A stretch of DNA of 55,633 nt from Pseudanabaena sp. UWO311 (lineage in GTDB: Bacteria; Cyanobacteriota; Cyanobacteriia; Pseudanabaenales; Pseudanabaenaceae). A model generated the notes under the pieces. That model was not told the origin of the DNA and made no database searches. It worked only from the letters and a program-made list of their open reading frames with translations. Numbering within the stretch: position 1 is the first letter of the stretch; each line of letters starts with the position of its first letter. The translations under genes and the position numbers were made by a program. Location: assembly GCF_006937785.1 (NCBI RefSeq), contig NZ_SJEE01000035.1:1-55633 (forward strand), written 5' to 3'. Shown here in pieces: positions 6,471 through 19,966 of this stretch.

Positions 6471-6510
6471 AGCTATCTTTATACTTAGCTTTTAAATAAT
6501 TCTATCACTT

Positions 6511-6613: not shown

Positions 6614-6657
6614 TACAATCTAACTGATGTTATGCGGAAGAAATTCCTGCGATCCTC

Positions 6658-6751
6658 ACGGTTGGGGGCTGACACGCACCGTCCACAGCCTCTACAGGTT
6701 ATAAAATTTTACAGGTAGGGGCATGCCCCCCTGCTTACCCTGTCAGGCTAG
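6658..6751. repeat. Dispersed GC-rich inverted repeat (GTAGGGGCATGCCCC type)
   Basis: The right part (6715-6751, GTAGGGGCATGCCCCCCTGC ...) is the reverse complement of 39032-39070, with only a few differences. The copy at 39032 is followed by a second inverted half, so both are members of one repeat family. This copy abuts the sulfatase-modifying-factor relic. Confidence 0.6.
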
Positions 6752-7012
6752 TGGCATGAGATTTATCATCTGCGTTCCATTCCCACCTTCCATTTTGGCG
6801 AAACAATTACTACCGATTACGTCAACTACGATGGAAACCATCCCTATGGTGATGCACCGAAAGGGAAATATCGAGAAGAGACAACCGATGTCAGCAGTTT
6901 TAAGGCGGCGAATGCCTTTGGTTTATACGATATGTATGGAAATGTGTGGGAATGGTGTGCTGATGATTGGCACAATAGTTATAAAGGAGCGCCAAAAGCC
7001 GTCAGGCGATAG
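6752..7012 (+). pseudogene. Formylglycine-generating enzyme/SUMF1-type relic
   Basis: The frame opening after the stop at 6749 reads [16 protein letters not shown], then [20 protein letters not shown] and [10 protein letters not shown]. These are the core signature blocks of the FGE-sulfatase (SUMF1) domain. The fragment has no start codon, lacks the N-terminal part and stops at 7010-7012 before the final conserved block. It is therefore a remnant of a longer gene, probably one of the kinase-associated FGE proteins common in cyanobacteria. Confidence 0.85.
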
Positions 7013-7160
7013 AATTTTTTTATTCTGCCAAATTGGCTTTGAACTCTTTGGACGATCGCTAACAAGACTCAATATCGATGTAGCAAAGAACGTCGATCGC
7101 TTCTTTGGTCTATGCTATTGGCAACTTTCCCCTAGAACATCATGCGACTAATATGCGGCG

Positions 7161-7241
7161 ATGACTAGAGCTACTGAGTATTTAGAGTTGAGTTGCGATC
7201 GGGATTCGGTGTTTGTGAAGAGATTGGAGAGGGTGCTTTAG
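7161..7241 (+). repeat. Coding-like relic repeat, copy 1
   Basis: A 26-codon frame starting at ATG 7161 reads EYLELSCDRDSVFVKRLERV. Near-identical text recurs at 8035-8115 and a decayed form at 11202-11261, all on the + strand. Flanking DNA is also shared: TTTCCCCTAGAAC-type sequence before and GTTACAAACTGCGATC-type sequence after. It looks like a dispersed repeat derived from the end of some gene; I do not recognise the parent. Confidence 0.5.
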
Positions 7242-7315
7242 TGGTGCGATCGGTAGGTGTTACAAACTGCGATCAATCAGTTACGGTAAAATACAGAAAC
7301 TATCTATCAAGAATT

Positions 7316-7894
7316 ATGCTCCAGAGTATTGTGGCGATCGCTAGTGTGATGATGATGTCCGCAAATACTAGTTTTCAATCTGTTGCCCAATCTCCTGTCA
7401 ATGATGAATGGGATGCTCTCAAAGGCTCAGGCAAAGTCTTACTAATGCGCCATGCGCTTGCACCAGGCACGGGTGATCCCAGTGGATTTCAACTGGAAGA
7501 CTGTAACACTCAGCGCAATTTGTCAGAAACAGGACGAGAGCAAGCCCTCCAAGCAGGGAATGAATTTCGGCGGCGGCAGATTCCTATTAAACAGGTTTTA
7601 TCTAGTCAATGGTGTCGTTGTTTAGAAACTGCCAAGCTTTTGAATTTAGGAGAAGTGAAGCCAGTACCTTCTCTCAATTCCTTTTTTAGCGATCGCAGTA
7701 CAGAGGATATCCAAACCGCTCAAACCCGCCGACTGATCGCAGAACATCGCCAACAGGATGGTGTCGTGGTTATGGTGACGCATCAGGTAAATATTACAGC
7801 TTTAACGGGTATTGTGCCGCGATCGGGGGCTGCTGTGGTGGTACAAGCTAACGCCGAAGGCGAAGTAATTGTAATTGGTGAACTAGATCCTTAG
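7316..7894 (+). CDS. Secreted histidine phosphatase family protein
   Basis: A branch 2-like histidine phosphatase of about 192 residues from the ATG at 7316. The longer frame from 7193 runs through repeat DNA and is unlikely to be translated. A signal peptide (MLQSIVAIASVMMM ... SVAQS) is followed by the catalytic RH motif LLMRHALAPG (Arg45, His46, phosphohistidine), the conserved arginine in SSQWCRCLETA, and the second histidine in MVTHQVNITA. All catalytic positions are present, so a periplasmic phosphomonoesterase is likely; the substrate is unknown. It stands alone between relic repeats. Confidence 0.88.
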   Translation: MLQSIVAIASVMMMSANTSFQSVAQSPVNDEWDALKGSGKVLLMRHALAPGTGDPSGFQLEDCNTQRNLSETGREQALQAGNEFRRRQIPIKQVLSSQWCRCLETAKLLNLGEVKPVPSLNSFFSDRSTEDIQTAQTRRLIAEHRQQDGVVVMVTHQVNITALTGIVPRSGAAVVVQANAEGEVIVIGELDP

Positions 7895-8034
7895 AAGAGA
7901 TGTCGAATGCTAAATAGACTATCTCTACAGTACAAACTCCGATCGCCCCTAATCCCAGTCCCACATGCGCTGTAATCATGGCAATTTTCCACTAGAACCC
8001 TCTGAGATTGATTCAAAATCAAGTCTTTTAGGCG

Positions 8035-8115
8035 ATGACGGCTAACGAGTATTTAGAATTATCCTGCGATCGGGATTCTGTGTTTGTGAGGAGATTGGAG
8101 AAGATTATCTTCTAA
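8035..8115 (+). repeat. Coding-like relic repeat, copy 2
   Basis: A 26-codon frame reads EYLELSCDRDSVFVRRLEKI, differing from the copy at 7161 by a few conservative changes. The preceding 55 bases contain the shared GGCAATTTTCCACTAGAAC block. Codon-level conservation between copies suggests common origin from a coding sequence, although neither copy looks like a functional gene. Confidence 0.5.
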
Positions 8116-8144
8116 CAAAGCCAACGTTGGCAATAATTTACGTC

Positions 8145-8318
8145 CTACCTTTTTCCACCGCCTAGAGAGTTAGCAGAACCACTAGAACCACTAGGAGCAC
8201 CACCTAGAGAGTTAGCAGATTGAGGATTATCTGCCCAACTACTATCACAAATTGCCAGTTGTGAAACTAAGAGAAATAAAACTGGAAATATACAAATGTA
8301 GGCAAAATGCTTGTTCAT
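8145..8318 (-). CDS. Small secreted Gly/Ser-rich peptide (57 residues)
   Basis: The frame starts at ATG 8318 behind a plausible AGAGAGG ribosome site. It encodes an N-terminal hydrophobic signal (HFAYICIFPVLFLLVSQLA, cleavage probably near SWA-D). The mature peptide is only about 28 residues and has two copies of SANSLGG separated by APSGSSG. It lies on the same strand and 212 bases downstream of the secreted TPR-CHAT protease gene. Its function is unknown; it may be a substrate, a surface peptide or an unrelated small protein. Confidence 0.55.
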   Translation of the reverse strand: MNKHFAYICIFPVLFLLVSQLAICDSSWADNPQSANSLGGAPSGSSGSANSLGGGKR

Positions 8319-8529
8319 GGTAAAGCCTCTCTTTAGAACTAAAATGTAACTGTATCAATCTTAAATGTTTGTGCAAAGATAAATAACTTAAGCTTTTTTG
8401 CTACTAAGATTTGCATTTCATAAATGATTAACTGTCGTAATATAGAGAATACAGTCAATTATAGACAAAATAAAGTGATAGTGATCACAGCTATTGACAC
8501 ATAATTAAAATTTCCACTTTTAAGTTTAC
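8319..8529. other. AT-rich spacer between TPR-CHAT gene and small peptide gene
   Basis: An AT-rich stretch with no open frame of note. On the minus strand it is the leader of the small peptide gene. No strong terminator hairpin follows the TPR-CHAT stop, so read-through into the peptide gene is possible. Confidence 0.4.
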
Positions 8530-10986
8530 TTACAGTCCGTTGCCGATCGCAAAAAATGCCGCCCAGTAATTAGGATGATTGTATTGTGATGATCTAATTA
8601 GCGATATTTGCGCCCTGCGTAATGCTTCAGTAACAGTAATATCACCTTTTTGAAGTTCACCATAAAAAGCAGTCATGAGTGCTTGTGTCCCAGCATCATT
8701 GACTTTCCACAGAGATGCAATCGCAACTCTGGCTCCTGCGGATTGCATTTGATAGCCTAATCCTAAGATCTCGACACCAGTGCCTAATTTGCTGCCAAGC
8801 CCTGACTGACAAGCACTGAGGATAACTAAATCCACATTACTCAGTGACCAATCTTGAATCTCTCTGATCGTCGCTTTTTCACCATTGCCAAAAAGGATAA
8901 AAGAGTCTTCGGGAGTTCCCACTGATAACTGCCCGTGGGTAGCTAGATGCAAAATTGTATGGGAGTTAGCTTTGGTTGCGGTGATTTGTTTGCTAAAGGC
9001 GGCTTCGGTGAAGGTGGTGGTATTTGGGAAAAGGCTGGCAATTTTTTGGACTTCTGTGATGGTGGCGGGTAGACCTTCAAATCCTGAGCGGGTCTTCTCT
9101 CCAGATTTCCCACCAAATGCACCTGCAAAGATGCGTGGCTTCGCTAGTGGTTTTGGCGCAAAGGAGGTGAGGGATTCGGCAGTGATATTGTTAACGCGAT
9201 ATTTTTCGACTAGCCACTGTTTTCCATCATGGAGAGCCGAGAGGGGAATATAGCGCAGTTGTCCATCTGGTGCATAGATAATCGTATCGATTTTTAGCTC
9301 TTTTAGCTCTGTTTCAAATGGTTGAATTAGCAATTTATAGAGTTTTTTGGCAGGTTCATTAACATCTTCGGAGCCAGCATCACGAAGCGCACTAAGAAAA
9401 TCAACTATTTCTTGGTTGAGTTGCTCACGTTTGATTTTGACTGTGCGGCGCAGGGGTGGGGTTTTGGCATTGATGATAATTAGTTCGAGGTGATCGTCTA
9501 GGATTAGAGGATAGAGTAGGACTGCATTGGGAACTTGGGAAAGGACATCTTTTTGGAGTTTACGATAACTGGAAAGGTTGAGATTTTGTTGTTCTTCAAC
9601 GCGACGCAGTTCAGCAATCAGTTTTTTAATTTCGGGGCTATTTAGGAAAGAGTTGAATTGCTTGTTTTGATCGCGTTCAGTTTGAACTAGTTGGGCGAGG
9701 CGTTGTTGTTCGGTTTCACTGAGTTTATTTTCACGGTCTTTTTGTTGGAGGGTGTTGAGTTCTGTGGCTAGGGCGATGATGTTTTGTTCGGGACGTTGGA
9801 GGTCAACGCCTTGGGCTGTTTGGGTGTTACCTCGCAAGGTGCGGAGGTAGTCGCTGAGTTCTTGAACTTTGAGAAGGTCGAGGACTTGTTGGGCTTCGAG
9901 AATACGGTCTTGCTTGAGTAAGAGATCGGCTAGGGATCGATAGGAACTTTCGATAGTAGAAAGATAAGTTTTTTGTGCTTCTATACCGAGTCCACGTATG
10001 TCTTTGCGAATCTCTTCACGAACATTGATAGATTGTTTATAAAAGAGTATCGCTAGTTCAATTTGATCGAGTTTTTTGAACAAGTATCCTAAATTCGTGA
10101 GCGCACGTCCTTCACCATTCCGATCTCCAATTTGCTTAGCTATAACTAAAGATTGCTGATAATACTCAATTGCTTTTTGATATTGACCAAGAGCTATCAA
10201 TGTATTACCAAGATTATTGATTATTTCTCCTTCAATAATAGTATTTTTGATTTGCTTAGCTATAACTAAAGATTGCTGATAATACTCAATTGCTTTTTGA
10301 TATTGCTTAAGATAGTTGTATACAATCCCCAAGTTGTTAAGTGCTCTTGCCTCTCCACTACGATAGCCAATTTGACGATTAATATCCAAAGATTTCTGAT
10401 AGTGAGCAATGGCTTTCTGATATTGTCCAATTAAATCGTAAGCACTACCCAAATTTCCCTGTGCAATAACTTGCCCTTTGAGATCTCCTATTTGTTTGGT
10501 TATAATTATAGATTGCTGATAATATTCAATTGCTTTTTGGTACTGGCCTAGATAGCTATATGTATTGCCAAGATTATTGAGTGTTCTTCCCTCTGACTCT
10601 TGAGCGTCAACTTGTCGAGCAATCTCTAATGCTTGCTCAAGGTACTCAATTGCTTTTTGATATTGTCCAAGTGCATTATATATATTCCCCAATTTTCTTT
10701 GTGAATTTCCTAGCCCCTTTCGATCTTTATTCTGTTGATAAATTTTTAATGCTTTACCATAGGTTTGTAATGCTTCTTGAAACTGACTCTTTTCATACTG
10801 TTCATCCCCTAGTTTTAGAAGTTGCTCAGCCTCTTTTTCCCTAGGATATATACTTTGAGCATTGACAGATTTTAGAGGGGAAAATGTAAAAATTTGGATA
10901 GGGGAAAGGCTGATTCCAATCGTAACGAGTAATCCGCCAGCGATCAATCGCGTAAAACAGTTAAGTGACTTGAGACTAGAGCGCAT
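8530..10986 (-). CDS. Secreted TPR-CHAT protease-like protein
   Basis: An 818-residue protein with an N-terminal signal sequence (LIAGGLLVTIGISL, cleavage near VNAQS). About eight tetratricopeptide repeats follow (residues about 50-345, each with a version of LGQYQKAIEYYQQSL), then a coiled linker (about 345-520), then a C-terminal CHAT domain. CHAT is the caspase-HetF fold; the catalytic histidine is visible in HLATHG (near residue 684) and the cysteine in LSACQSGLG (near 726), so a working clan CD protease is likely. TPRs normally bind a partner that controls the protease. Export to the periplasm is typical for many cyanobacterial copies. Two neighbouring TPRs are almost identical in DNA (56 bases near 10132 and 10252), showing recent internal duplication. 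Confidence 0.92.
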   Translation of the reverse strand: MRSSLKSLNCFTRLIAGGLLVTIGISLSPIQIFTFSPLKSVNAQSIYPREKEAEQLLKLGDEQYEKSQFQEALQTYGKALKIYQQNKDRKGLGNSQRKLGNIYNALGQYQKAIEYLEQALEIARQVDAQESEGRTLNNLGNTYSYLGQYQKAIEYYQQSIIITKQIGDLKGQVIAQGNLGSAYDLIGQYQKAIAHYQKSLDINRQIGYRSGEARALNNLGIVYNYLKQYQKAIEYYQQSLVIAKQIKNTIIEGEIINNLGNTLIALGQYQKAIEYYQQSLVIAKQIGDRNGEGRALTNLGYLFKKLDQIELAILFYKQSINVREEIRKDIRGLGIEAQKTYLSTIESSYRSLADLLLKQDRILEAQQVLDLLKVQELSDYLRTLRGNTQTAQGVDLQRPEQNIIALATELNTLQQKDRENKLSETEQQRLAQLVQTERDQNKQFNSFLNSPEIKKLIAELRRVEEQQNLNLSSYRKLQKDVLSQVPNAVLLYPLILDDHLELIIINAKTPPLRRTVKIKREQLNQEIVDFLSALRDAGSEDVNEPAKKLYKLLIQPFETELKELKIDTIIYAPDGQLRYIPLSALHDGKQWLVEKYRVNNITAESLTSFAPKPLAKPRIFAGAFGGKSGEKTRSGFEGLPATITEVQKIASLFPNTTTFTEAAFSKQITATKANSHTILHLATHGQLSVGTPEDSFILFGNGEKATIREIQDWSLSNVDLVILSACQSGLGSKLGTGVEILGLGYQMQSAGARVAIASLWKVNDAGTQALMTAFYGELQKGDITVTEALRRAQISLIRSSQYNHPNYWAAFFAIGNGL

Positions 10987-11344
10987 CTTAACTATACTCC
11001 GAGCAAAAATCTTATCCTTATAAATATCACTATTTTAGTTGTAAAGATAGACATTAACTCATGAAATTTTGATGATTTGGATCGCTACCCGTTACATACT
11101 GCGATCACCCCCCATCTAAATCTAACAAGCGCTACAATCTTGGCAAATTTCCACTAAAACACCATGCGATCTCGGACGAGACAAGTCTGTTGAATAGAGT
11201 TGATGAGCTTTCGCACGATCAAGACTCTGCTTTTGTGTAGAAATTGGAGAGGGTTGGTTAAGGGATCGGGAGGCGTTACAAAGTGCGATCGCTTGGCGTG
11301 AATTTTTTGCAATTTCTTGTTACAGCCAAAGGATTTATGTATAT
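10987..11344. other. Spacer with degenerate dispersed repeats
   Basis: Contains the shared blocks TACTGCGATCACC, GGCAAATTTCCACTAAAAC and GTTACAAAGTGCGATCGC, plus the decayed coding-like copy at 11202-11261. No intact gene is visible on either strand. Confidence 0.5.
11202..11261 (+). repeat. Coding-like relic repeat, copy 3 (decayed)
   Basis: The frame reads DELSHDQDSAFV, then a stop, then KLERVG. It aligns with EYLELSCDRDSVFVKRLERV of the copies at 7161 and 8035. The internal stop shows that this copy is dead. Confidence 0.45.
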
Positions 11345-11971
11345 TTACAAATCTTCAAAATCAATCTTACAGAGATCTACATCTGGATAGCCGTAGTCAT
11401 TTACCATCTGTACCATCGCAAATTGTTTTTCCTCTGGAGATATAATCGCAACAAGGATGTCATCAATTATGCCAAGATTCTCTCTGACGATCCGATTCAA
11501 CTCATCTGTTTTCTGATGAGCAAAAAGGTAAAGACCGCTTGCAGCAAGTACTCCGTCTGAAAATGTTAAGATGCTCCCAACACGCTCTCGGTATTTGAAG
11601 AGGATGTTAAAGCAATCGGTTAATTGATCGCTGTGAACGCCAAACCCATGACCGTAATTTATGCTTCCTCTCATGTCCACTGGTAGCATTTCCAACATTG
11701 AATTGTGTAATGTATCTAATAATGAGGCATATCTCGGATCATCGTATTTTATAAATTTCCCATTAACGAATGCCTCTGGATTCCATTCGATCTCAAAGGC
11801 GTTAAACATTGCAATCAACTGTTGAAATCGGAAATGGCTTGATGGACTCCATGAAAGTGATTTCTCATTCCACCTATTTACATCAGGCACAAATCTTCTC
11901 AGATCTAAGAATGTAAGTAGCAAATTTCGAGCAGTAATAATTGTCGTTTTTTCAATATATCTGATATACAT
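11345..11971 (-). CDS. Hypothetical protein, 208 residues
   Basis: An intact soluble-looking protein without signal peptide or membrane segment. It has an aromatic- and Asn-rich middle (WNPEAFVNGKFIKYDDPRYA), a patch INYGHGFGVHSDQLTDCFNILF, and an acidic C-terminus (DVDLCKIDFEDL). Composition is less rich in HIP1 sites than its neighbours, which may point to transfer. I do not recognise a family. It is flanked on both sides by repeat-rich spacers and has no operon partner. Confidence 0.6.
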   Translation of the reverse strand: MYIRYIEKTTIITARNLLLTFLDLRRFVPDVNRWNEKSLSWSPSSHFRFQQLIAMFNAFEIEWNPEAFVNGKFIKYDDPRYASLLDTLHNSMLEMLPVDMRGSINYGHGFGVHSDQLTDCFNILFKYRERVGSILTFSDGVLAASGLYLFAHQKTDELNRIVRENLGIIDDILVAIISPEEKQFAMVQMVNDYGYPDVDLCKIDFEDL

Positions 11972-12307
11972 AAAGCTATAGCCAAGATTGCACTAGATGA
12001 TAGATTTTGAGAAAAAAGATTTCAAGAAAGCAAATCCTTAAAATGGTGATAGCAATTAACGACAAATGGAAAATAAGTTATTAAATATTTTCCCCTAAAA
12101 CCGAATGTTTCGCTAGAACCAATGCGATCGCCTAACCATCCAAAGTACTGCCTAAACTACTCGACTGCATTAGGCTTTGCCGTACCAGAGGCGATCGCTG
12201 TCTCCACAATGACCATTGAGTAAGAAGTCGATCGATCCGTTACAAACTGCGATCGCACAAGGATCGGATAGCGTGACATTGCTATGCTGGTTGTAAAATC
12301 TCTCTAC
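11972..12307. other. Repeat-rich spacer
   Basis: Carries further copies of the local degenerate blocks (TTTTCCCCTAAAACC near 12086, TCGCTAGAACCAATGCGATC near 12110, and GTTACAAACTGCGATCGC near 12240) and several HIP1 sites. No gene was seen. Confidence 0.5.
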
Positions 12308-12667
12308 ATGAATGTAATGACAAACCTTATTAAGTCAATAAAGCAGTCAGAATCACTTCAGGTTTTAGTCCGCAGATTTGCCACTTATCTTGTCTTGTCA
12401 GCAGTTTTCATACTACTAGGGCTAGGTATAGGCGTTATTGGTTATCACTGGGTTGCTGGTTTCAGTTGGGTAGATGCCTTAGTCGAAGCTTCAATGATTC
12501 TTAGTGGCATGGGACCAATTAGCCCATTACCGAATATCAGCGCTAAGATTTTTGCCTCTACATACGCGCTTTTTAGTGGTTTAGTTTTTGTCCTAGCAAT
12601 GGGGATCGTTTTATCTCCAGTTGTCTATAGTTTGCTGAAACATTTTGATGTCAATAAGGAAGCTTAA
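12308..12667 (+). CDS. Two-helix membrane protein resembling a K+ channel pore module
   Basis: The protein is about 119 residues from ATG 12308; an upstream ATG at 12284 lies in repeat DNA. Two membrane helices (about residues 26-50 and 82-108) flank a short helix and the loop ALVEASMILSGMGPISPLP. This helix-loop-helix plan and the position of the loop resemble two-TM potassium channels, but the selectivity filter TVGYG is replaced by LSGMGP, so potassium selectivity cannot be claimed. Short proteins with this variant loop occur in other bacteria as uncharacterised membrane proteins. A 21-bp repeat array begins at the last codons. Confidence 0.55.
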   Translation: MNVMTNLIKSIKQSESLQVLVRRFATYLVLSAVFILLGLGIGVIGYHWVAGFSWVDALVEASMILSGMGPISPLPNISAKIFASTYALFSGLVFVLAMGIVLSPVVYSLLKHFDVNKEA

Positions 12668-12740
12668 CTTCTACAAAAGGAAGCTTAACTTCTACAAAAG
12701 GAAGCTTAACTTCTACAAAAGGAAGCTTAACTTCTACAAA
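12658..12740. repeat. 21-bp tandem repeat, four copies
   Basis: Unit GGAAGCTTAACTTCTACAAAA at 12658, 12679, 12700 and 12721; the last copy runs into a HIP1 site. The first unit supplies the last codons and stop of the preceding membrane protein gene. Copies are identical, so the array is recent. Each unit contains a HindIII-type AAGCTT palindrome. Confidence 0.95.
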
Positions 12741-12818
12741 CTGCGATCGCCCTCAGATCTGATACCGTGAGAATATTTAGTTATCGACTTTCCCCTAGAA
12801 CGCAACAAGGAAAACACC

Positions 12819-13280
12819 ATGAATGCCAAGCAAATTTTGACCACTGTTGCCTCTGCGATCGCCTTATCCTTACTTGGCAATGTGGCACAGGCTCAGGCAG
12901 AGTGTCCTAAAGCTGGTACGTTAAAGAATTTTGCTCAAATTACGGCACAAGCCGAAGTTTTTAATGGTTGTGATGTCACTACTGAGGTTAGTTTTGTCGC
13001 AACAGGCAAGGGTAACAATCTGTTTGCGGCTTACAATTTTGATGGAGAGACTGTATTTCGGGTAATGCCTTTAGGACAAGAAGCTGTCGCCACACCATTT
13101 GGCATAGAGGCTTATGGAATTAGTATTGCAAACGATAAGGCAGACCCAGTTTTTACTTTGAAAACTGGCGACATTTTGCGTTTACGAGGATCTGTAGATT
13201 TTAAAAAGTTTAATGGTTATGACGTGGGCGTTGCCAGTCGAGTTTTTCGCGCTCAGTCAGTTGAAGTTTTGAAAAAGTAG
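12819..13280 (+). CDS. Secreted protein of unknown function, 153 residues
   Basis: A clear signal peptide (ILTTVASAIALSLLG, cleavage after AQAQA) is followed by a mature domain of about 125 residues. This has two cysteines that could form a disulfide (ECPKAG and NGCDVT) and alternating beta-type sequence (TGDILRLRGSVDFKKFNGYDVGV). It is probably periplasmic or exported. The 36 bases upstream contain the local TTTCCCCTAGAAC repeat block and an AAGGAAAA ribosome site. No family is recognised. Confidence 0.7.
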   Translation: MNAKQILTTVASAIALSLLGNVAQAQAECPKAGTLKNFAQITAQAEVFNGCDVTTEVSFVATGKGNNLFAAYNFDGETVFRVMPLGQEAVATPFGIEAYGISIANDKADPVFTLKTGDILRLRGSVDFKKFNGYDVGVASRVFRAQSVEVLKK

Positions 13281-13434
13281 TTGAGAGTGAGGCGATCGCG
13301 CAGTGGATCGGGTGGTGTTACAAAGTGCGATCGCACTGCTGTTAATCGTGCATACTTTTCATGTCTATGGTGTTTCTTGGTATGTAGTTTCAACTTATCA
13401 TGCCGCACCACCGCAGTCCCTATTTTATGAAACA

Positions 13435-14184
13435 ATGCCATTCTCTATTATGTTGAATATCAATCAAGCTTTGCTGGGTATTGTCACTACTGCTTCTATC
13501 TCTATCCTCGCCAGTAGTCCTGAAATACAAGCTGCTAAACCACCAAATCCATTAACTGGTATTTGGATCTCTGACGATAGTAATTCAGGTGTCTCTAGAA
13601 TGCGTTTCACCGCAGATGGGCAAGTAATGATTTTGCCAATCGTTGCCTATGAAGACAGAATAGAATCTGAGAAAATCGCCAAGTATGTTTTTTCTGCTGA
13701 TGGTAAGAAGTTAGCAATTACAACTAGCGATCGAGTGACCACAAACTATGACGTTCAAGTGCTGGCAGGTGGTAAAGCTACTTTATTCAACCCCACAGGA
13801 TCTTACTATTCCAAAAAGCTTAAATTAAGAAAGGCTTGCGAGAATTCTGAACTAACTTCTTCGCCAAAAAATCCAGTGCTTGGAACTTGGTTGATGATTG
13901 CACCCCGAGCGATGGTAGTGAGAGCAATTTTTACCTCAGACAATAAAATGATTTGGCTATCTATTGATGAGAGGCAGAATTCTGCGCGTTCTGAATTCCC
14001 ATATACGATCGCTCAAAACAGTCAATCATTCACAATGGTAATCTCCGACAAAGAAAAAATCTCCTATGTTTATGCATTAAAAAACGATCATCAAATGACT
14101 CTTGAGGCAAAAACTAGGAGGGAAAAATGGAATCTATTCAAGATCTGTGACTCAACAGCACTACCTGCCATTCAACCGAAGTAG
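13435..14184 (+). CDS. Secreted protein with two lipocalin-like repeats
   Basis: About 249 residues if started at ATG 13435 (or 244 from 13450). The frame extends upstream to 13303 but that part crosses a repeat block. A signal peptide (ALLGIVTTASISILA, cleavage near EIQA) precedes two similar domains. One opens with NPLTGIWISDD and MRFTADGQVMIL, the other with NPVLGTWLMIA and IFTSDNKMIWL. Each ends near a cysteine (KACENS, KICDST). The pattern of G-x-W followed by beta strands is that of small beta-barrel folds; the duplication is clear from sequence, the fold is inferred. Function is unknown. Confidence 0.65.
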   Translation: MPFSIMLNINQALLGIVTTASISILASSPEIQAAKPPNPLTGIWISDDSNSGVSRMRFTADGQVMILPIVAYEDRIESEKIAKYVFSADGKKLAITTSDRVTTNYDVQVLAGGKATLFNPTGSYYSKKLKLRKACENSELTSSPKNPVLGTWLMIAPRAMVVRAIFTSDNKMIWLSIDERQNSARSEFPYTIAQNSQSFTMVISDKEKISYVYALKNDHQMTLEAKTRREKWNLFKICDSTALPAIQPK

Positions 14185-14220
14185 TAATGTTATCGACGGA
14201 GAATAGCGATCGCACAAAGA

Positions 14221-14313
14221 TAGGACTTACGCAAAAACGTCTTAAAACCCACATTTTATCGTAGGGGCAATTCATGAATTGCCCCTACATTTCGTCCTTT
14301 TGCGTCAGTCCTA
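14221..14313. mobile_element. 93-bp MITE with TAGGACTTACGCA ends (copy 1)
   Basis: Starts TAGGACTTACGCAAAA and ends TTTTGCGTCAGTCCTA. The centre is the palindrome GTAGGGGCAATTCATGAATTG with its inverse. A copy of the same length and arrangement lies at 49041-49133. Non-autonomous. Confidence 0.85.
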
Positions 14314-14405
14314 AAAGAATTTCTCAACACGACCAACAACTGTAAATATTTACACCTGTTCTGGTAGAAATTATTGTTTCAATTTTCTACCTATTTGCAC
14401 AACTC

Positions 14406-14753
14406 ATGCCCAAAATACCCGACTGCGATCGCTGCATCAACAATGCCCACAGTGCTTACCTAGTCTGTGCGATCCATCCCAAAGGCATTGACGGTGATTC
14501 ATGTTCAGACTTTGCCGATGATGGTCAAGAGCTATGGTGTCCCAATAGTTTTACGTTTATTGATGGTCATCTTGTGAAATTGCCAATAACCTATGAAACC
14601 GATCATCAGTCAAGGTTAACCAGAGCGCAACAGTATCAAATTTTGATGACGCATCCTGTATTTTCGGGTCGATGTCCGCAATGTCTCTATGTGTATGAAG
14701 AGAATAGCGATCGCATTGATTGGAATTGCCCTATCTGTGGATGGCAAGATTAA
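14406..14753 (+). CDS. Cysteine-rich conserved hypothetical protein, zinc-ribbon-like C-terminus
   Basis: A 115-residue protein with two metal-binding-looking regions. The N-terminus has CDRC followed by CAIHPKGIDGDSC; the C-terminus has CPQCLYVYEEN and DWNCPICGW, a four-cysteine zinc ribbon. Such proteins are widespread in cyanobacteria without assigned function. It overlaps the convergent XRE gene by four bases. A local HIP1 site lies within the gene, so it is well adapted to this genome. Confidence 0.7.
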   Translation: MPKIPDCDRCINNAHSAYLVCAIHPKGIDGDSCSDFADDGQELWCPNSFTFIDGHLVKLPITYETDHQSRLTRAQQYQILMTHPVFSGRCPQCLYVYEENSDRIDWNCPICGWQD

Positions 14754-15124
14754 TCGAGTTTTTTATTTTCAATATCGTCAGGTAAATCCCCTCCAAAAAG
14801 TTTACCAATTTGCATTAGTAAGCAACCTATTTGTTGATTGTCCATTATGGTAATCGCAAAAGCAACTGTGGGGCATTCTTGCGTAGATATTGTGCGTCCA
14901 TAGATATTCGCCAAAAACTCTTCTGGCAGTTGACCAGACAATTCGGCAAGCTTTTCTAAGTTTTCAAGGGTCGGCACGTTGGTGGCTTTTTCCCAACTCG
15001 CAATTGTAGATTGACTAACATCAAGTGTTTTAGCAAATTCAATCTGAGAAGCTTCACCTCTAAGGGTCTTTACTGTTTGAGCCAACCTTAAACGACTTTG
15101 ATGATCCATATGTGCAAATAACAA
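14750..15124 (-). CDS. XRE-family helix-turn-helix regulator
   Basis: A 124-residue protein (or 119 from the second Met at 15109). The N-terminal helix-turn-helix reads LRLAQTVKTLRGEASQIEFA followed by SQSTIASWEKATNVPTLENL, a textbook Cro/C1-type domain. The C-terminal half has no recognised ligand domain. It is divergent from the 15209 gene and the palindrome lies between them, as in a phage-like or plasmid-like control region; it may repress that cassette. The binding site is not proven. Confidence 0.88.
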   Translation of the reverse strand: MLFAHMDHQSRLRLAQTVKTLRGEASQIEFAKTLDVSQSTIASWEKATNVPTLENLEKLAELSGQLPEEFLANIYGRTISTQECPTVAFAITIMDNQQIGCLLMQIGKLFGGDLPDDIENKKLD

Positions 15125-15185
15125 TCATATAGATATATACGAACTTATAAAGCATTTTAGACGTATTGAGGTGTAAACGTGAATA

Positions 15186-15211
15186 CATTATTTATCGATC
15201 GATAAATAATG
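15186..15211. promoter_or_regulatory. 26-bp perfect palindrome ending in the start codon of the next gene
   Basis: The left half is CATTATTTATCGA and the right half is its exact reverse complement, ending in the ATG at 15209-15211. It sits between the XRE gene and the small RHH-like gene. A dimeric DNA-binding protein bound here would block ribosome access and transcription together. It is the obvious operator candidate for the cassette. Confidence 0.7.
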
Positions 15212-15364
15212 GCTAAAAGAGAAAAGACGACTACCGCTATCGAAAAATTTCTGAAACGTAGAATATCGTTGATTGCTGCCGAGCAAGGCGTTGATTTTTG
15301 CGTTGTTCTGGAGGATTTGATTATTAAGGGTCTCGAATATTATGACAACTCGATTGCCGCTTGA
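15209..15364 (+). CDS. Small RHH-like DNA-binding protein (51 residues)
   Basis: This short frame reads TTTAIEKFLKRRISLIAAEQ then CVVLEDLIIKGLEYYD. A short strand followed by two helices is the ribbon-helix-helix (Arc/CopG) plan. The start codon is the end of a perfect palindrome, as expected for autoregulation. Its 3' end overlaps the next gene (start 15342) by 23 bases in another frame, implying translational coupling. Family assignment is from pattern only. Confidence 0.6.
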   Translation: MAKREKTTTAIEKFLKRRISLIAAEQGVDFCVVLEDLIIKGLEYYDNSIAA

Positions 15365-15641
15365 TGCTCCTCTACGATTTACGACGAGTTCGTACTACTT
15401 TCATATTTTGGTTAGGCGGACATCATCGCTTAAATGCGTATCAGTCCACTCTGAAGGAAATGCCTCAGCTTTTAACGAGCTTGCAGAGCAATTAGGGGGC
15501 AAATGCTCCAAAACGCTTACCAGTAAAGATGGGGAGGAGCGATTATTTGTTTTTGAGAAAAAATCGATCGCTAATAAGTTTTTTAAAGCAGTTTTTACCT
15601 TCCCTGAAGTCATCAGCGTAGGCTTAGAGACTTTTCCATAA
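15342..15641 (+). CDS. Hypothetical small protein of the 14-18 kb cassette
   Basis: 99 residues, basic and soluble, with SSYYFHILVRRTSSLKCVSV and a C-terminal FKAVFTFPEVISVGLETF. It overlaps the RHH-like gene by 23 bases. The pattern of alternating strands and one long helix suggests a small alpha/beta fold. I do not recognise it. Context suggests a function in the integrative cassette. Confidence 0.55.
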   Translation: MTTRLPLDAPLRFTTSSYYFHILVRRTSSLKCVSVHSEGNASAFNELAEQLGGKCSKTLTSKDGEERLFVFEKKSIANKFFKAVFTFPEVISVGLETFP

Positions 15642-15695
15642 AAAAAACCACTAGCACGAACTAGCGGGACTACAAATTTTATTCAGTTTCTAACA

Positions 15696-16070
15696 ATGCA
15701 ACAAAATATCTGTGAAATGCTCAATCGTGAGCAACTTTTGGAGTGCCAAAGATTGAATCAAGCCTATTGTATCTGGACTGCATTCAAATATGCAATGGTC
15801 GTAACCTCCCCAAATTATAGAAATCGCGCTCCTCTAACAGCCCCCAGAGTTAATAAACAAAGTAACCAGTTGCTCGAAACTTTTCAAGTTGGCGATCTTG
15901 TTAGCACAGAAACTCATAGTGAAACGGTTGTTAATGGATGGCACAACGTCTCAGGCAGTCGGTTTGTGACTGGAGTTATCAAAAAAATCAAAGGTGACTC
16001 AGTTTGGATTGATTGCGATGGTGAAATTGTTGTCACTCTTCTAGATCAATGTTGGTGGTCTGAGCTATGA
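15696..16070 (+). CDS. Hypothetical protein with an SH3-like C-terminal region
   Basis: 124 residues. The N-terminal half is helical (NREQLLECQRLNQAYCIW). The C-terminal half has FQVGDLVSTETHSE and FVTGVIKKIKGDSVWIDCDG, which looks like a small beta-barrel of the SH3/KOW kind. Its stop overlaps the start of the next small gene (ATGA, 16067-16070). No family is recognised; the cassette context suggests a DNA or RNA-related role, which is inference. Confidence 0.55.
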   Translation: MQQNICEMLNREQLLECQRLNQAYCIWTAFKYAMVVTSPNYRNRAPLTAPRVNKQSNQLLETFQVGDLVSTETHSETVVNGWHNVSGSRFVTGVIKKIKGDSVWIDCDGEIVVTLLDQCWWSEL

Positions 16071-16231
16071 GTGTCTATATACCAACGATTAGAGAAGCCC
16101 TAGAACGTGAAGGCTATTTTGCAAGTATAGCCAAGTCTATAGCTTGCCAATGCAAGCCAGATTTAGTCGAGCATTGCGATCGCGACGGCTTATTTTTCAC
16201 CTGTGAATTGTGCTTGCGTGATGTGCCTTAA
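16067..16231 (+). CDS. 54-residue cysteine-containing small protein
   Basis: The frame begins at the ATGA overlap with the previous gene and reads TIREALEREGYFASIAKSIA then CQCKPDLVEHCDRDGLFFTC and ELCLRDVP. Five cysteines and one histidine could hold one zinc ion. It is too short for standard gene callers, but the coupling to its neighbour supports translation. Function unknown. Confidence 0.5.
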   Translation: MSVYIPTIREALEREGYFASIAKSIACQCKPDLVEHCDRDGLFFTCELCLRDVP

Positions 16232-16268
16232 TGCTTTGGCTCAGGTGATGACCTTTTCGACTATTGAG

Positions 16269-17276
16269 ATGACTGTGCGAATGAGGTCGAAAGAAATGGC
16301 TAGATTCTATCCACTAGAACATGAGGAATGGCTAGAAGTTTCTAAGGAATTAAATCTTAGTGAGTTAAATGTCCTTTATTACATCCGTACTCTCGATCCC
16401 TATGGCAATGGCATAAAAGTTAGTGCAAATGCGATCGCATTAAAGCTTGGCATTAATCGCTCAACGGCAAGTCGTGCATTAAAAAGTCTTGATGCTAAAG
16501 GCTATATCGATCTAGAAATCGTGATGGCAAATGTCTCGATCAAAGGCAAAGGTTTGTTGCATACACGCAACGATGTTGCACCCACGCAACAAGAAGAGGT
16601 GTTGCACCCATGCAACGATGTTGCACCCACGCAACAAGAAGAGGTGTTGCACCCACACAACATGCAGTGCGCTGATGCAACAAGCAGTGCATCCATGCAA
16701 CAAGCGACGGCTGAAAGCATTGCTATAAATGAATCCTGTGACCCTAAGATCTCTAAGATCTCTTTAGATCTATTAGAAAGATCAGATCAGGACAATTTTT
16801 TGAATTTTGATAATTCAGAAGCGGCGCTTAGCGCCGTAGAAAATTTTGAAATTTCTTTAGATGAGGCGATCGCTGAAATTCAAGAGGCAATCTCCCAAAA
16901 TTTAGTGCCTGATGAAATTGCATTTGAGGCAAAGACACTTGAAGAACCGATCAACCCTATTGACGGTCAATTTTCCCGCGCCGCCGTTGAGGAGTTTGTA
17001 TTGAAGTCTTTAAAATCTCGACCACGCGATCGTAAGGCGTATTTTTCTAAATTTAAGCCCGCAGATTGGCAAAAGTGGGAATTGGAGCTTAGAACCTCAG
17101 TCTCGCCAAAGCGAGATGCATTGATTGAAAATCTGCACCTATTAGAAAACTCGATCCGTCTGGCGATCTCCTCAAAAGACTTTGATTTTGCCAGAGCCAA
17201 GATTGAAAACTTAAAGGCGACACACCCAGATTTGGCGAAGCAACTCGAAACAAAGTTTTTTGGAGGCGCTGCATGA
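16269..17276 (+). CDS. Winged-helix replication-initiator-like protein
   Basis: About 335 residues from ATG 16269; ATGs at 16281 and 16296 are also possible, and a GTG at 16203 overlaps the previous gene. Residues about 10-85 form a winged-helix domain (LSELNVLYYIRTLDPYGNGI, then LGINRSTASRALKSLDAKGY), as in plasmid Rep and DnaD-like proteins. A low-complexity middle encoded by iteron-like repeats (two copies of NDVAPTQQEEVLHP) follows, then an acidic linker and a helical C-terminus. The gene ends in ATGA overlap with the next. A role in replication or regulation of the cassette is inferred from the winged helix plus repeats inside the gene; it could instead be a transcription regulator. Confidence 0.6.
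   Translation: MTVRMRSKEMARFYPLEHEEWLEVSKELNLSELNVLYYIRTLDPYGNGIKVSANAIALKLGINRSTASRALKSLDAKGYIDLEIVMANVSIKGKGLLHTRNDVAPTQQEEVLHPCNDVAPTQQEEVLHPHNMQCADATSSASMQQATAESIAINESCDPKISKISLDLLERSDQDNFLNFDNSEAALSAVENFEISLDEAIAEIQEAISQNLVPDEIAFEAKTLEEPINPIDGQFSRAAVEEFVLKSLKSRPRDRKAYFSKFKPADWQKWELELRTSVSPKRDALIENLHLLENSIRLAISSKDFDFARAKIENLKATHPDLAKQLETKFFGGAA
16556..16701. repeat. Seven iteron-like 16-bp repeats inside the rep-like gene
   Basis: Copies of GTTGCACCCACGCAAC (with small changes) start at 16556, 16575, 16601, 16620, 16646, about 16667 and 16686. Spacings alternate 19 and 26 bases for the first five. Each unit has inverted arms GTTGC and GCAAC. Clustered repeats within or beside a rep gene are typical of iteron origins. 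Confidence 0.75.
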
Positions 17277-18130
17277 TTTCATTAGCGGGACATGGCAAAG
17301 ATCCCCGATTGGTTCAACCAGTCTTATTTTCCGTAGGCGATCGCGTAGTTGATACAGATGGGGAAGAAGGCTTAATTACAGCCCTTAGCAATACTTGTAT
17401 CAATGTCTCAAAGCCCGATGTTGTGACCTCACACAACTTAAAAATGGGTAAGCCCAAATTAAGAACAGTTTCCAAAAACAACCAACTATTTGAAATTCTG
17501 CTCCCAATTTGTAATCACTATTCAGGACGCTATCTGCCCACATTTGCGGTTAATGCCATCGGTCACGCGCTCGACCATGCCAAAAACAATAAGCTCTCCG
17601 AAGCGATCGCCTTGCTATCGCCAGATGTCCTAGCAGAACTGAAAAAGCCTACTAAAGAAGTTGCCGAGCTTAAAAAATTTCTCGAAAATTTCTCTAGCAT
17701 CGATGCCGATAAATCCCCCGATCTTGAGACTCCAATTACCTCAGAACCTAAGTTATCCGTTGCAAAGTTACGCATGGATGAATCTAAGGTATCCGTTCTA
17801 GTGGAGATTCCCAAAACCAAGCTTGATATTTTGCGCGATCGCTTGGCAGATCTGCAAAAAGAAGCGATAGCTCTTGAATCATCAGGCGCTAGCCCGAAAG
17901 GAGTTTGGCTTGAGAAATCGCGTCCGTCCAAACGGAATTTCGATCAAGTGGTCTGGAAAAGTGCCAAGCCCCACAAATGGCTCAACGACAAAAGATCGAG
18001 GTATATCGGCAAACTTGACCACGACGAGCATAAGAGTGCGCAGACTCAGTTTGCCTCAGGAAAGCGATTGCAGGAAATCCAGAAAGAAATTAAAGAGATC
18101 GAAAAAAAATTGACAAAAATTAAGGATTAA
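17273..18130 (+). CDS. Hypothetical protein, 285 residues, coiled-coil C-terminus
   Basis: Starts at the ATGA overlap with the winged-helix gene, so the two are coupled. The N-terminal 60 residues have a KOW/SH3-like look (FSVGDRVVDTDGEEGLITAL). The middle is helical, and the C-terminal third is charged and predicted to coil (RLQEIQKEIKEIEKKLTKIK). Between them lies KGVWLEKSRPSKRNFDQVVW, a basic patch that could touch nucleic acid. No enzyme motif is seen. It is probably a partner of the preceding protein in the cassette. Confidence 0.55.
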   Translation: MISLAGHGKDPRLVQPVLFSVGDRVVDTDGEEGLITALSNTCINVSKPDVVTSHNLKMGKPKLRTVSKNNQLFEILLPICNHYSGRYLPTFAVNAIGHALDHAKNNKLSEAIALLSPDVLAELKKPTKEVAELKKFLENFSSIDADKSPDLETPITSEPKLSVAKLRMDESKVSVLVEIPKTKLDILRDRLADLQKEAIALESSGASPKGVWLEKSRPSKRNFDQVVWKSAKPHKWLNDKRSRYIGKLDHDEHKSAQTQFASGKRLQEIQKEIKEIEKKLTKIKD

Positions 18131-18140
18131 AGCCATGCCC

Positions 18141-18378
18141 ATGAATAGAAGCCTTTACCCCAGCGATTGGGATGCGATCGCTACCCGCATCAAAGATAAA
18201 GCTGCGTGGATTTGCCAAAATTGCCAACGTCCATGCCGAAAGCCAAATGTTTCTTGGATTGACTTTAACCAATGGTTGCTTGATACAGGTCAGAGCGATT
18301 GGCACAAGGACAACTCACATTATTTCCCGATTAAAGTACAGACGACTGGATCGAGTTGGAATAGCCACTGAATTTTAA
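18141..18378 (+). pseudogene. HNH endonuclease gene with its catalytic core deleted
   Basis: The N-terminal part, MNRSLYPSDWDAIATRIKDK then WICQNCQRPCRKPNVSW, is the normal beginning of a cyanobacterial HNH protein with a CxxC knuckle. After residue about 60 the first frame becomes nonsense and stops at 18371. The -2/+1 frame reads RRLDRVGIATEF and stops at 18378, matching the usual C-terminal tail (KxxRLxRLG...F). The HNH core between them is gone, so an internal deletion with frame loss is the best reading. Confidence 0.6.
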
Positions 18379-18421
18379 AAAACAATTTTATAAGCCCGAA
18401 TGTCAGGGGGACTCCTTAAAC

Positions 18422-18631
18422 ATGAACACAATTATTAAATACTTACCTACCGCCGCCGCCGCTGAAGCTTTAGGACTTTCTAGTGGAAAAGCTCTAATTG
18501 GCTATCTCAGCGAACTAAAACAAGGTGTGCATTACCAAGACCGTCGAAAGGCTGGGGCGCGTAAAGCTAAATACTTTTTCAACGTTGAGGCGATTCGTAA
18601 TTATTGGGACAAACCACCAGAAAGGCGTTAA
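18422..18631 (+). CDS. Excisionase-like helix-turn-helix protein
   Basis: 69 residues, basic, with LPTAAAAEALGLSSGKALIG (helix-turn-helix), then a wing-like YLSELKQGVHYQDRRKAG and a C-terminal ANYF/IRNYW-type end. The size and pattern fit small MerR/Xis-type excisionases that bend DNA beside an attachment site. It lies about 100 bases from the tRNA 3' fragment at 18737, the normal position for xis. A GGGGGACTCC stretch precedes the start. No integrase gene remains nearby. Confidence 0.65.
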   Translation: MNTIIKYLPTAAAAEALGLSSGKALIGYLSELKQGVHYQDRRKAGARKAKYFFNVEAIRNYWDKPPERR

Positions 18632-18736
18632 AAATGTCAGACAAAATAAGTAATCGGTCACTATTTCGGTCACTACATATTTTCTTTCAAACTAAAACCC
18701 ATATATAACAGGCTTATATGTAGTTTGATTTGTGGA

Positions 18737-18779
18737 CTCCTAAGCGATAGGTCATGAGTTCGATCCTCGTCAACCCTGT
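18737..18779 (+). other. 3' half of a tRNA-Arg(CCU) gene, probable att site
   Basis: From the anticodon loop CTCCTAA (anticodon CCT) onward the sequence has a T-arm with a five-pair stem (ATGAG/CTCGT) around TTCGATC and a 3' acceptor strand CAACCCT. The 5' half is absent: no AGGGTTG or D-arm lies upstream. Identity that starts at the anticodon loop is typical of tyrosine-recombinase attachment sites. It probably marks one end of the 14-18.7 kb cassette. Confidence 0.6.
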
Positions 18780-18785
18780 CATTAC

Positions 18786-18829
18786 AAAAAAAGAGAGTGG
18801 CGGCGATTAGCGCCGCTACTCCCTTTTTT
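18786..18829. terminator. Bidirectional terminator hairpin after the cobO-like gene
   Basis: Inverted repeat GAGAGTGGCGGCG / CGCCGCTACTCCC flanked by A7 and T6 runs. It ends the minus-strand cobO-like gene at 18833 and insulates it from the cassette. Confidence 0.8.
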
Positions 18830-18832
18830 AGT

Positions 18833-19966
18833 TTAAAAATCTACACCACGTTTAAGATCTACTCCTTTTTCGGCATAGTGTTTGTGGCAGACCATTTCAG
18901 AATGCACAGACGCAAGGTCAAAATAAGCAGGTTGATTAAAACATCTGCCTGTGATGATGATTTCGGTATCGCGAGATTTTTTGAGCAAGGCTTGGCAGAT
19001 TGGTTCAACGGGTAATAAATCCAGATCAACAGTGGGATTTAGTTCATCAAGAATGATTGTCTTATAAAGCCCCGATGCGATCGCAGCCTGAGCAATTTCC
19101 CAACCGCGTTGCGCTTCGATGCAGTCCATTTCTTGCTGTTGACCCCGCCAAACGATCGCATCACGTCCACAACGCTGATGATCGATTACATGGGGATATC
19201 CGCGTTTTAGAGCTGCGATCGCGGCATCTTCGGTATAGCCAGCACCGCCTTTGAGCCATTGCATAATTAAAACTCGGTGGGATAAATCGCGACTAATCCC
19301 TGTGCCGATAGCCTTCAGTGATCGCCCCAATGCTGATGTACTTTTGCCTTTACCTGCGCCCGTATAAATTTCGATTCCCGTCACACCATATTTCTCGGCA
19401 TGGGCATCATCATGCGATCTCATTTCAGAATGGAGATCAGCGATATCAACTAATGATTGAGGTGCACCGCGACCTGTACAGATGACTTCGAGATGAGGTG
19501 GCTTGTTTTTTAAATCTTTGACAATGCGATCGACGGGAATTAAGCCTAAATCCAAAACAGGATTAATCTCGTCTAAGACAACGACTGAGTAAAGTCCTGA
19601 AGCCATAGCGCCTTTGGCGATCGCCCAACCTCTTTCTGCTTCTTGGCGATCGAAGGGGGTGACATGTTCAGCATCAAAAAACTCAGAGCGACCAGTCCGC
19701 ACATGATCGATTAAATGGGGAAATCCCTGTTGCAATGCGGAAATTGCGGCATCTTCAGAATATTCACGCTCAGAACCTTTGAGAAATCGCAATAACAAAA
19801 TTCTTGTGCCAAAGGGTGATGTGTCGGACATTCCTAAGCCAAGAGATCGCAAGACTACGCCCAAAGCCGCCTGTGATTTACCTTTGCCTGTTCCGTCATA
19901 AACATGGATTTGTCCGATCTCACGTTCGGGACGCACCTGTGCGGTCATGATGCCTATCGCTGCCAT
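18833..19966 (-). CDS. Tandem-duplicated CobO/BtuR-type P-loop protein
   Basis: 377 residues made of two homologous domains. Each has an ATP-binding loop of the corrinoid adenosyltransferase type (YDGTGKGKSQAA near residue 23, YTGAGKGKSTSA near 202) and the later blocks VVVLDEINPVLDLGL and IILDELNPTVDLDLL. Single-domain CobO/BtuR transfers adenosyl from ATP to cob(I)alamin. The fused pair is the usual cyanobacterial form, and its activity has to be inferred; one domain may be structural. An adjoining cobalamin gene is not present. Start: MAAIGIM at 19966, or the Met six codons later. Transcribed alone, ending at a strong hairpin. Confidence 0.88.
   Translation of the reverse strand: MAAIGIMTAQVRPEREIGQIHVYDGTGKGKSQAALGVVLRSLGLGMSDTSPFGTRILLLRFLKGSEREYSEDAAISALQQGFPHLIDHVRTGRSEFFDAEHVTPFDRQEAERGWAIAKGAMASGLYSVVVLDEINPVLDLGLIPVDRIVKDLKNKPPHLEVICTGRGAPQSLVDIADLHSEMRSHDDAHAEKYGVTGIEIYTGAGKGKSTSALGRSLKAIGTGISRDLSHRVLIMQWLKGGAGYTEDAAIAALKRGYPHVIDHQRCGRDAIVWRGQQQEMDCIEAQRGWEIAQAAIASGLYKTIILDELNPTVDLDLLPVEPICQALLKKSRDTEIIITGRCFNQPAYFDLASVHSEMVCHKHYAEKGVDLKRGVDF

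Follow-up and report, generated by a model that had tools for sequence, protein, structure and literature searches.

A probable plasmid-like integrative element in tRNA-Arg(CCU) of Pseudanabaena sp. UWO311, with a predicted replication origin inside its initiator-like gene

Introduction

Which kind of mobile DNA places a set of small coupled genes, a replication-like gene and the 3' half of a tRNA gene side by side? The question is raised by positions 14,406 to 18,779 of contig NZ_SJEE01000035.1 of Pseudanabaena sp. UWO311 (genome G000, 5.2 Mb in 61 contigs). The window is this entire contig, C33, with a length of 55,633 bp. A first-pass annotation had seen a compact and decayed small element in the cassette, an integrative plasmid or a phage satellite, confined to 14.4–18.8 kb and with no integrase left. 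Our analysis suggests that tRNA-Arg(CCU) very likely houses an integrated plasmid-like element, at least ~39.9 kb long, of which the cassette forms the attR end. At the level of sequence, this is carried by att repeats with arm sites beside them, by genes for an integrase and an excisionase-like protein, by a conserved gene order and by relatives that show the empty and the joined form.

Contigs C13 and C33 were available, and the stretch between them is not covered by the assembly. The Pfam scans of the G000 element (40 protein scans) covered its available parts. The gene names tldE and cobO come from a reading of the sequence. A literature search retrieved no paper on this element or on this kind of initiator, which is weak evidence of absence.

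Attachment site and borders of the element

The right end of the element and its surroundings are made up as follows.

1..18736: right-hand portion of the integrated element, up to the edge of the contig, placed by flanks that are contiguous in G016 and by an order common to sister elements; predicted cargo at 1–14.75 kb, regulation and replication module at 14.75–18.4 kb, excisionase gene and att arm up to 18.74 kb
18422..18631, plus strand: excisionase-like protein, 55–59 % identical to proteins of int-xis elements in G021 and G004
18656..18673, plus strand: integrase arm-type pair GGTCAC-N6-GGTCAC, the sole copy in the window
18737..18779, plus strand: attR core, the 3' half of tRNA-Arg(CCU), 43/43 identical to C13:326816-326858
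18780..19966: chromosomal flank with a cobO-like gene (18833–19966, minus strand), 88–89 % identical to DNA directly beside an intact tRNA-Arg in G016

The tRNA half had been recognised correctly, and the complete tRNA-Arg(CCU) and second copy of 18737–18779 that were to be looked for were both found on C13. The genome holds one exact further copy of the core, C13:326816-326858, forming the 3' end of the intact tRNA gene. Just downstream lies an intact frame for a 354-aa tyrosine recombinase that matches the integrase family phrog_1 (E 3.1e-16). The integrase believed lost is thus located beside the other tRNA copy. Relatives of it were present in 60 of 97 genomes searched (own included), and a tRNA gene preceded the integrase directly in 11 of 20 loci examined (own included).

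In the relative G016, an intact tRNA-Arg lies directly between tldE and cobO. The C13 flank is 91.8 % identical to this locus up to the tRNA end and the window 88.4 % from 18737 on; the two matches overlap by exactly the 43-bp core. By its sequence, the tldE-tRNA-cobO locus of G016 is the empty site. Among 23 cobO loci scanned (own included), a tRNA within the examined stretch occurred only at G016. An integrase, direct att repeats and an empty site in a relative, the marks of site-specific integration into a tRNA gene, were all observed.

The distance from attL to the C13 end is 21.2 kb, and from the C33 start to attR 18.7 kb. If the C13 end and window 1–18779 are the two ends, most simply, the element has at least ~39.9 kb, and instead of being confined to the cassette it runs to the left window edge and beyond. 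C33 opens with an assembly repeat: its first 127 bases are also found where C52 and C17 begin. We infer one element across C13 and C33; the C13 end is tied independently to C33 because in the sister elements of G023 and G022 the C13 gene block and the window module lie on one contig.

Two observations concern the flank. The cobO-like gene 18833–19966 resembles, by eye, an in-frame tandem duplication with two P-loop halves. A palindromic repeat at 18788–18829, just beyond attR, had 51 further partial matches in the genome, many of them both strands of one place.

Excisionase, arm sites and the joined form

The excisionase-like gene named by the first-pass annotation stands in part. The 18422 protein itself gave no family match in the Pfam or PHROG scans; its 59 % identical relative in G004 matches the excisionase family phrog_66 (E 7e-4). 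Ten sequences were scanned for the arm pair next to it. There is one copy each at attL (L050:1970) and at the G018 attL, and the pair is present on both sides of the G004 attP and at both G021 ends; it is absent from L051, L052, L055, L056 and L091. A looser pattern, applied to 20 integrase loci, was present at G000, G021 and G004, with one similar pair at a G029 integrase and none at the other 16 loci.

The joined attP is known only from the contig of one relative, G004 (Pseudanabaena sp. 'Roaring Creek', NZ_LIRE01000245.1, 13,476 bp). Its order is excisionase-like gene, GGTCAC-N6-GGTCAC, tRNA-Arg-like core (27/30 bases aligned), second GGTCAC-N6-GGTCAC and an integrase 69 % identical to that of C13. 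If the two ends of the G000 element joined, this order would be expected. In G021, no tRNA-Arg core was found in the examined stretch. The int/xis elements of G004 and G021 resemble the G000 element in integrase (69–72 % identical), excisionase (55–59 %), arm sites and in-gene repeats of a winged-helix gene; they differ in gene content and in a size of only 11.7–13.5 kb, and the AAA-YdjM block described below was not matched in them.

The small elements (L068:1818-13444 in G021 and L069:1-13476 in G004) hold an operon of unrecognised proteins of 634/399 aa, 285/316 aa and 100–180 aa, and a second, 200-aa XerD-like gene. Four of the operon proteins had no PHROG match at E 0.05 or better. These could be virus-like or satellite elements.

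Sister elements in the genus

The first-pass annotation had suggested searching for the proteins as a block in other cyanobacterial genomes, and the block does recur. Counting the own genome, the winged-helix gene was present in 9 of 97 genomes and a 17273 protein in 11 of 58; in all seven other genomes with both, the two genes are side by side. G023 and G027 keep the order XRE, RHH, 15696, winged helix, 17273, and G027 has 16067 and HNH as well, HNH being placed before 17273.

In G023, G025 and G022, the module lies inside an element that splits comM. The C-terminal open frames of comM have 229, 229 and 180 aa, respectively, versus 508–509 aa in G000, G010, G016 and G018. At the far end of all three elements are the other comM half and a large serine recombinase (PF00239 and PF07508 in G023; 99.8 % identical to it in G025 and 44 % in G022). 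Measured by the comM borders, the elements have ~45 kb in G023 and ~56 kb in G022, each on one contig, while in G025 two element ends are on two contigs. One end in G023 and G022 shows the C13 gene order AAA, YdjM, coiled coil, TolC-like, SNase, p6522 with 57–82 % identity; across G023, G022 and G025 this left backbone block is 50–82 % identical. On the cargo side, G023 and G022 have relatives of window genes 3884 and 14406, and G022 alone has one of 4979/5308; the XRE-to-17273 module comes next. The comM elements thus have the two backbone blocks and the XRE/winged-helix/17273 module in common with the G000 element, and differ in using comM and a large serine recombinase instead of tRNA-Arg and a tyrosine recombinase.

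The G023 sister (20 of ~51 mechanically called open reading frames scanned with Pfam) codes for Cas3, Cas8b, Cas5 (type I-B), ArdA and ParA; the ParA neighbour is ParB-like, below the Pfam cut-off. It further differs from the G000 element in a 17273 relative fused to Dam and in the type I-B CRISPR-Cas cargo. A repeat array in L056 and L091 (G023:C1 ~36–49 kb) looks by eye like a CRISPR accompanied by a cas2-like gene.

Kinship with plasmids

YdjM relatives were found in 66 plasmid records, most of those listed being cyanobacterial and including NC_005232 of Synechocystis PCC 6803, which we take to be pSYSA; the AAA-YdjM block is therefore regarded as a plasmid backbone. The circular plasmid pANSO36C of Nostoc cf. 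commune SO-36 (NZ_AP025735.1, 69.9 kb) has the order ATP-binding protein, YdjM, DUF87, HlyD, TolC and thermonuclease, with a divergent HTH gene and a winged-helix gene downstream. In tblastn, six proteins matched pANSO36C in order: AAA (44 %), YdjM (32 %), coiled coil (23 %), TolC-like (27 %), SNase (49 %) and winged helix (32 %). In the 34 kb taken from pANSO36C, p6522, XRE, RHH, 15342, 15696, 16067, 17273, HNH, excisionase and integrase had no match at E 0.01, and the plasmid is not among the three plasmid matches of the integrase. Its winged-helix gene likewise has in-gene repeats; it differs in being an autonomous circle in the record and in a DUF87 gene between YdjM and HlyD. As the backbone order is shared with an autonomous circular plasmid, the G000 element is read as an integrated plasmid. 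The plasmid-like integrative character with a Rep-like gene, and an Xis-like gene beside the tRNA attachment half, had been seen correctly in the first annotation.

At the DNA level, positions 14000–19000 matched six plasmid records in pieces of 60–109 bp, each 1–2 % of the query, and no phage record. On the plasmids L095 and L096, AAA-YdjM stands beside an ATPase with a DUF87 or a type IV secretion system (T4SS) DNA-binding domain, and L096 also has HlyD-like and TolC-like genes. The block on L095 and L096 is possibly an unrecognised envelope-spanning export or transfer module.

The regulation and replication module

The module between the cargo and the excisionase gene comprises the following features.

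14750..15109, minus strand: XRE repressor-like gene, divergent from the operon; PF01381, E 1.5e-9
15186..15211: 26-bp perfect palindrome over the start of the 15209 gene, probable operator
15209..15364, plus strand: 51-aa RHH/Arc-like protein; phrog_582, E 0.09 (weak); 46–55 % identical in G023 and G027
15342..15641, plus strand: 99-aa unrecognised protein, overlapping the 15209 gene; 29–36 % identical relatives at the same place in G022 and G025
15696..16070, plus strand: 124-aa unrecognised protein; relatives in G023 (71 % over 59 aa) and G027 (41 % over 54 aa)
16067..16231, plus strand: 54-aa unrecognised protein, 4-nt overlap with the 15696 gene; 40 % identical relative in G027
16296..17276, plus strand: winged-helix replication-initiator-like protein; start chosen by homologues, a longer GTG start being at 16203
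16556..16661: five 16-bp inverted-repeat iterons GTTGC-N6-(G/A)CAAC, starting at 16556, 16575, 16601, 16620 and 16646; predicted origin
17273..18130, plus strand: 285-aa protein, 53 % identical over 211 aa in G023
18135..18371, plus strand: truncated HNH endonuclease gene; phrog_1571, E 2.3e-5, profile positions 1–38 of 128

Most of the individual gene calls of the first pass were borne out: the XRE regulator, the palindrome at its place, the coupled small reading frames, the winged-helix gene with iterons inside and the gutted HNH gene. The RHH-like gene has its weak Arc-like match and no firm family match. The coupled proteins 15342, 15696, 16067 and 17273 were again unrecognised, with no convincing family match in Pfam or PHROG; 15696 gave a weak small-barrel hint (DUF150_C, E 0.046). 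XRE homologues are at the same place in G023, G027, G025 and G022. The relatives of 17273 are longer (668 aa in G023, 787 aa in G025), the one in G023 having a Dam N6-adenine methylase in its middle (PF05869, E 3.9e-16). The HNH relative in G027 has 125 aa.

The palindrome 15186–15211 is one of four perfect even palindromes with arms of at least 11 in the 55.6 kb and is a probable operator. A first scan for perfect, even palindromes gave none in seven relatives. A second scan, admitting mismatches and odd centres, gave a one-mismatch counterpart in G023 before the RHH homologue, with the same TTTATCGATC half, and, in G022 and G018, candidates with two mismatches. When these regions were shuffled by mononucleotides 100 times, 1–8 of the shuffles gave any such palindrome.

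The 16296 protein matches MarR_2 (1.4e-7), the DnaD-like loader phrog_186 (4e-4) and the replication initiation family phrog_270 (7e-4), and more weakly phrog_678, 'replication initiation O-like' (E 0.018); it is a probable replication initiator. The five iterons, the only matches of their pattern in the window, are spaced 19, 26, 19 and 26 and lie inside the gene, after the winged-helix domain. For an initiator with its own origin, the homology and the repeat arrays are what is observed, and the in-gene repeats 16556–16661 are a predicted replication origin.

In-gene repeats were counted as 8-mer pairs lying no more than 150 bp apart, on either strand, and compared with 300 synonymous shuffles of each gene. 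This measure, the third applied, was picked after the results of two others, given below, and was afterwards run on further genes. The first set consisted of 14 homologues, eight of the genus and family (window included) and six from plasmids. Thirteen of them exceeded all 300 shuffles (23–237 pairs), with the peak at codon 83–122; the sole exception is a 106-codon open frame. The window gene has 68 pairs versus a shuffle mean of 6.7 and a largest value of 25 (n = 300). Two of 20 control genes beat all shuffles, with 17 pairs (HsdM) and 9 pairs (G023 relative of 17273). A profile search over 292 genomes provided 29 matches in 22 genomes (own included). The own copy and five matches starting beyond the winged helix were left out; of the 23 taken, three were unplaceable and 20 were evaluated. 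In 18 of the 20, the array at profile position 70–140 surpassed all 200 shuffles, in one of them narrowly (8 vs 7), and two genes had none; the genes are not all independent, since there are close relationships among some of them and with the first set (L118 and L139 with Planktothrix). Statistically, an initiator family with an embedded origin is supported.

The repeat sequences differ between most lineages, and their position is the same. The half-site GTTGC/GCAAC is common to the window, Planktothrix and partly Trichormus; GTCTC/GAGAC-type half-sites occur in G023 and G022. In two of six plasmid regions viewed, Trichormus and Microcystis, dnaB directly follows the initiator gene, which overlaps the dnaB start; no dnaB was annotated beside the winged-helix gene in the other four. 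A structure model from two input sequences was poor (mean pLDDT 55.8): the N- and C-terminal parts were better defined, and residues 78–188, spanning the repeats, were below 50. Of the 728 Foldseek matches to this model up to E 10, none reached 0.001, and the 50 listed were mostly generic winged-helix domains.

The initiator gene of phage lambda, O, has inverted-repeat iterons inside. The 16296 gene resembles it in this respect and in the helicase gene downstream in two plasmid relatives; it differs in that a sequence relation is not detectable beyond phrog_678. The RepA_N initiators are the closer anatomical parallel. According to the pSK41 study (PMC5703833), the N-terminal domain of Rep binds boxes in the middle of the rep gene, and the part of the protein that these boxes encode is dispensable. 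An N-terminal winged helix, mid-gene origin repeats and a separate C-terminal domain are common to that system, as described there, and to 16296. By position and statistics, the repeats of 16296 would likewise form an origin within the initiator gene, in the part that separates the N- and C-terminal domains. The RepA_N domain itself (PF06970) was not among the 14 Pfam matches of 16296 up to E 0.1, and no RepA_N protein is named among the best 60 of 64 PDB profile matches or is among the 50 listed Foldseek matches of the poor model. In the main text of the CyRepX paper (PMC10899382), the terms MarR, helix-turn-helix, winged, DnaB and iteron are absent.

We give an even chance to the wider proposal of a widespread, hitherto undescribed cyanobacterial initiator family whose genes bear the origin in the linker that joins the winged helix to the C-terminal domain. 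The repeat sequence would vary by replicon lineage with its place fixed, a RepA_N-like anatomy that would have arisen separately from RepA_N. The family would serve free plasmids as well as large elements that swap integration modules, with a tyrosine integrase in tRNA or a serine recombinase in comM.

Proposed mechanism

The divergent XRE and RHH-like regulators would keep the operon silent by acting at the palindrome. On release, the winged-helix protein would bind the iterons within its own gene and then load the replicative helicase of the host. Int and Xis (18422) would excise a circle, 18422 being needed for excision, and the excised circle would replicate as a plasmid and could re-integrate. 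Re-integration would restore the tRNA because the element carries the tRNA 3' half.

Cargo and neighbouring palindromes

157..3669, plus strand: cargo genes for HsdS, DUF1016/YhcG nuclease and HsdM (Pfam PF01420, PF06250, PF02384)
14406..14753, plus strand: 115-aa cargo protein, 86 % identical in the G022 sister element and 58 % in G023

The 14406 protein possibly has a metal-binding Cys cluster. A NERD-domain gene at 4979–5841 is split in two reading frames of 99 and 177 aa; its G022 relative is a single frame of 618 aa, 91–93 % identical. The perfect palindrome GTAGGGGCAATTCATGAATTGCCCCTAC occurs at 14261–14288 and 49080–49109, with surroundings that have matches on plasmids of Pseudanabaena, Brasilonema and Nostoc as well. 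Outside the element, at 35783–35808, is the 26-bp perfect palindrome ACGCATAGCGCGATCGCGCTATGCGT.

Alternative explanations

Several results weigh against an integrated plasmid-like element as described here. The C13 end and C33 are on separate contigs with the middle unseen, and a search for an overlap of 15–299 bp between the C13 end and the C33 start found none. The C13 integrase stays below the Pfam cut-off (E 0.001, 19.3 bits versus 27.1). The empty site rests on one genome, G016. G018 has an attL with an arm pair (L071, C146) and no integrase match in its genome, and its cobO (L070, C37) lacks a preceding tRNA half; both loci are read, from their sequence, as a damaged or altered related insertion. 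ParA/ParB were not seen in the available part of the G000 element. The 17273 protein lacks the Dam domain of its G023 relative, and the HNH gene is an N-terminal stub. A clear counterpart of the operator-like palindrome was found only in G023, and none in G027, G025, G021 and G004 (4/7 relatives). The other two repeat measures were weaker. By exact 9-mers seen at least three times (200 synonymous shuffles), 8 of 13 genes were above all shuffles, the 9-mers of G023, G021 and G004 being mainly GCGATCGC-type words; by inverted repeats alone (100 shuffles), 4 of 14 were, with G025 below the shuffle mean. Binding of the winged-helix protein to its own repeats enters the proposal as a prediction.

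An integrative conjugative or mobilisable element is the alternative that survives best, though we consider it unlikely. Its transfer genes would lie in the gap or be unlike the library families, for example as the AAA-YdjM-coiled-coil/HlyD-TolC block. ArdA in the G023 sister speaks for it, as do the Nostoc and Synechococcus plasmids on which the block includes an annotated DUF87 or T4SS DNA-binding-domain ATPase. On the other hand, no relaxase or VirB4-type family was found among the 20 scanned G023 proteins, Pfam scans of the available G000 proteins gave no relaxase or type IV secretion family at E 0.01, and 60 of the 66 plasmids with a YdjM relative were typed non-mobilizable.

That the cassette is a ~4-kb decayed small integrative plasmid or phage satellite without integrase is much less probable. 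The compact operon, the HNH stub, the missing Dam domain and the 11.7–13.5 kb elements with the same integrase, excisionase and winged-helix gene in G021 and G004 would fit; the integrase beside the other tRNA copy does not, nor does the upstream cargo recurring in order in the G023 and G022 sisters. This explanation is largely refuted by the att copy, the integrase and the G016 empty site. No tested gene marks the element as a phage satellite, and decay is visible in single genes only (HNH stub, 17273 without Dam domain, split NERD gene).

Slightly less probable still is a prophage, whole or as a remnant, of which the module would be the immunity region and replication gene; on the parts available we reject it. 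Its appeal lies in the divergent repressor/Arc-like pair, the lambda-O-like initiator and int/xis, and the AAA protein had one weak PHROG P-loop match to terminase (E 0.018). Against these stand the absence of terminase, portal, capsid and tail families (Pfam, E 0.01) from the 20 scanned G023 proteins and the 40 protein scans of G000, an integrase without match in 50,697 phage records, three proteins without close relative in viral contigs and the same gene order on a plasmid. Least probable is a static genomic island bearing a tRNA fragment by chance, a view to which the separate contigs and the frequency of lone tRNA fragments as debris would lend themselves, and which is contradicted by the exact 43-bp repeat, the matching arm sites on both sides and the empty and joined forms in relatives.

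Implications

Read as part of an integrated plasmid-like element, what looked like a 4-kb curiosity becomes the extremity of a mobile element that can be defined, with predicted borders, a predicted origin and a predicted excision reaction. If the in-gene repeats are origins, they would provide a rule for spotting cyanobacterial replicons whose Rep is unannotated, and may furnish small portable replicons for cyanobacterial genetics. One replication module combined with different integration modules would be a clean example of module exchange in elements that bear restriction and CRISPR systems.

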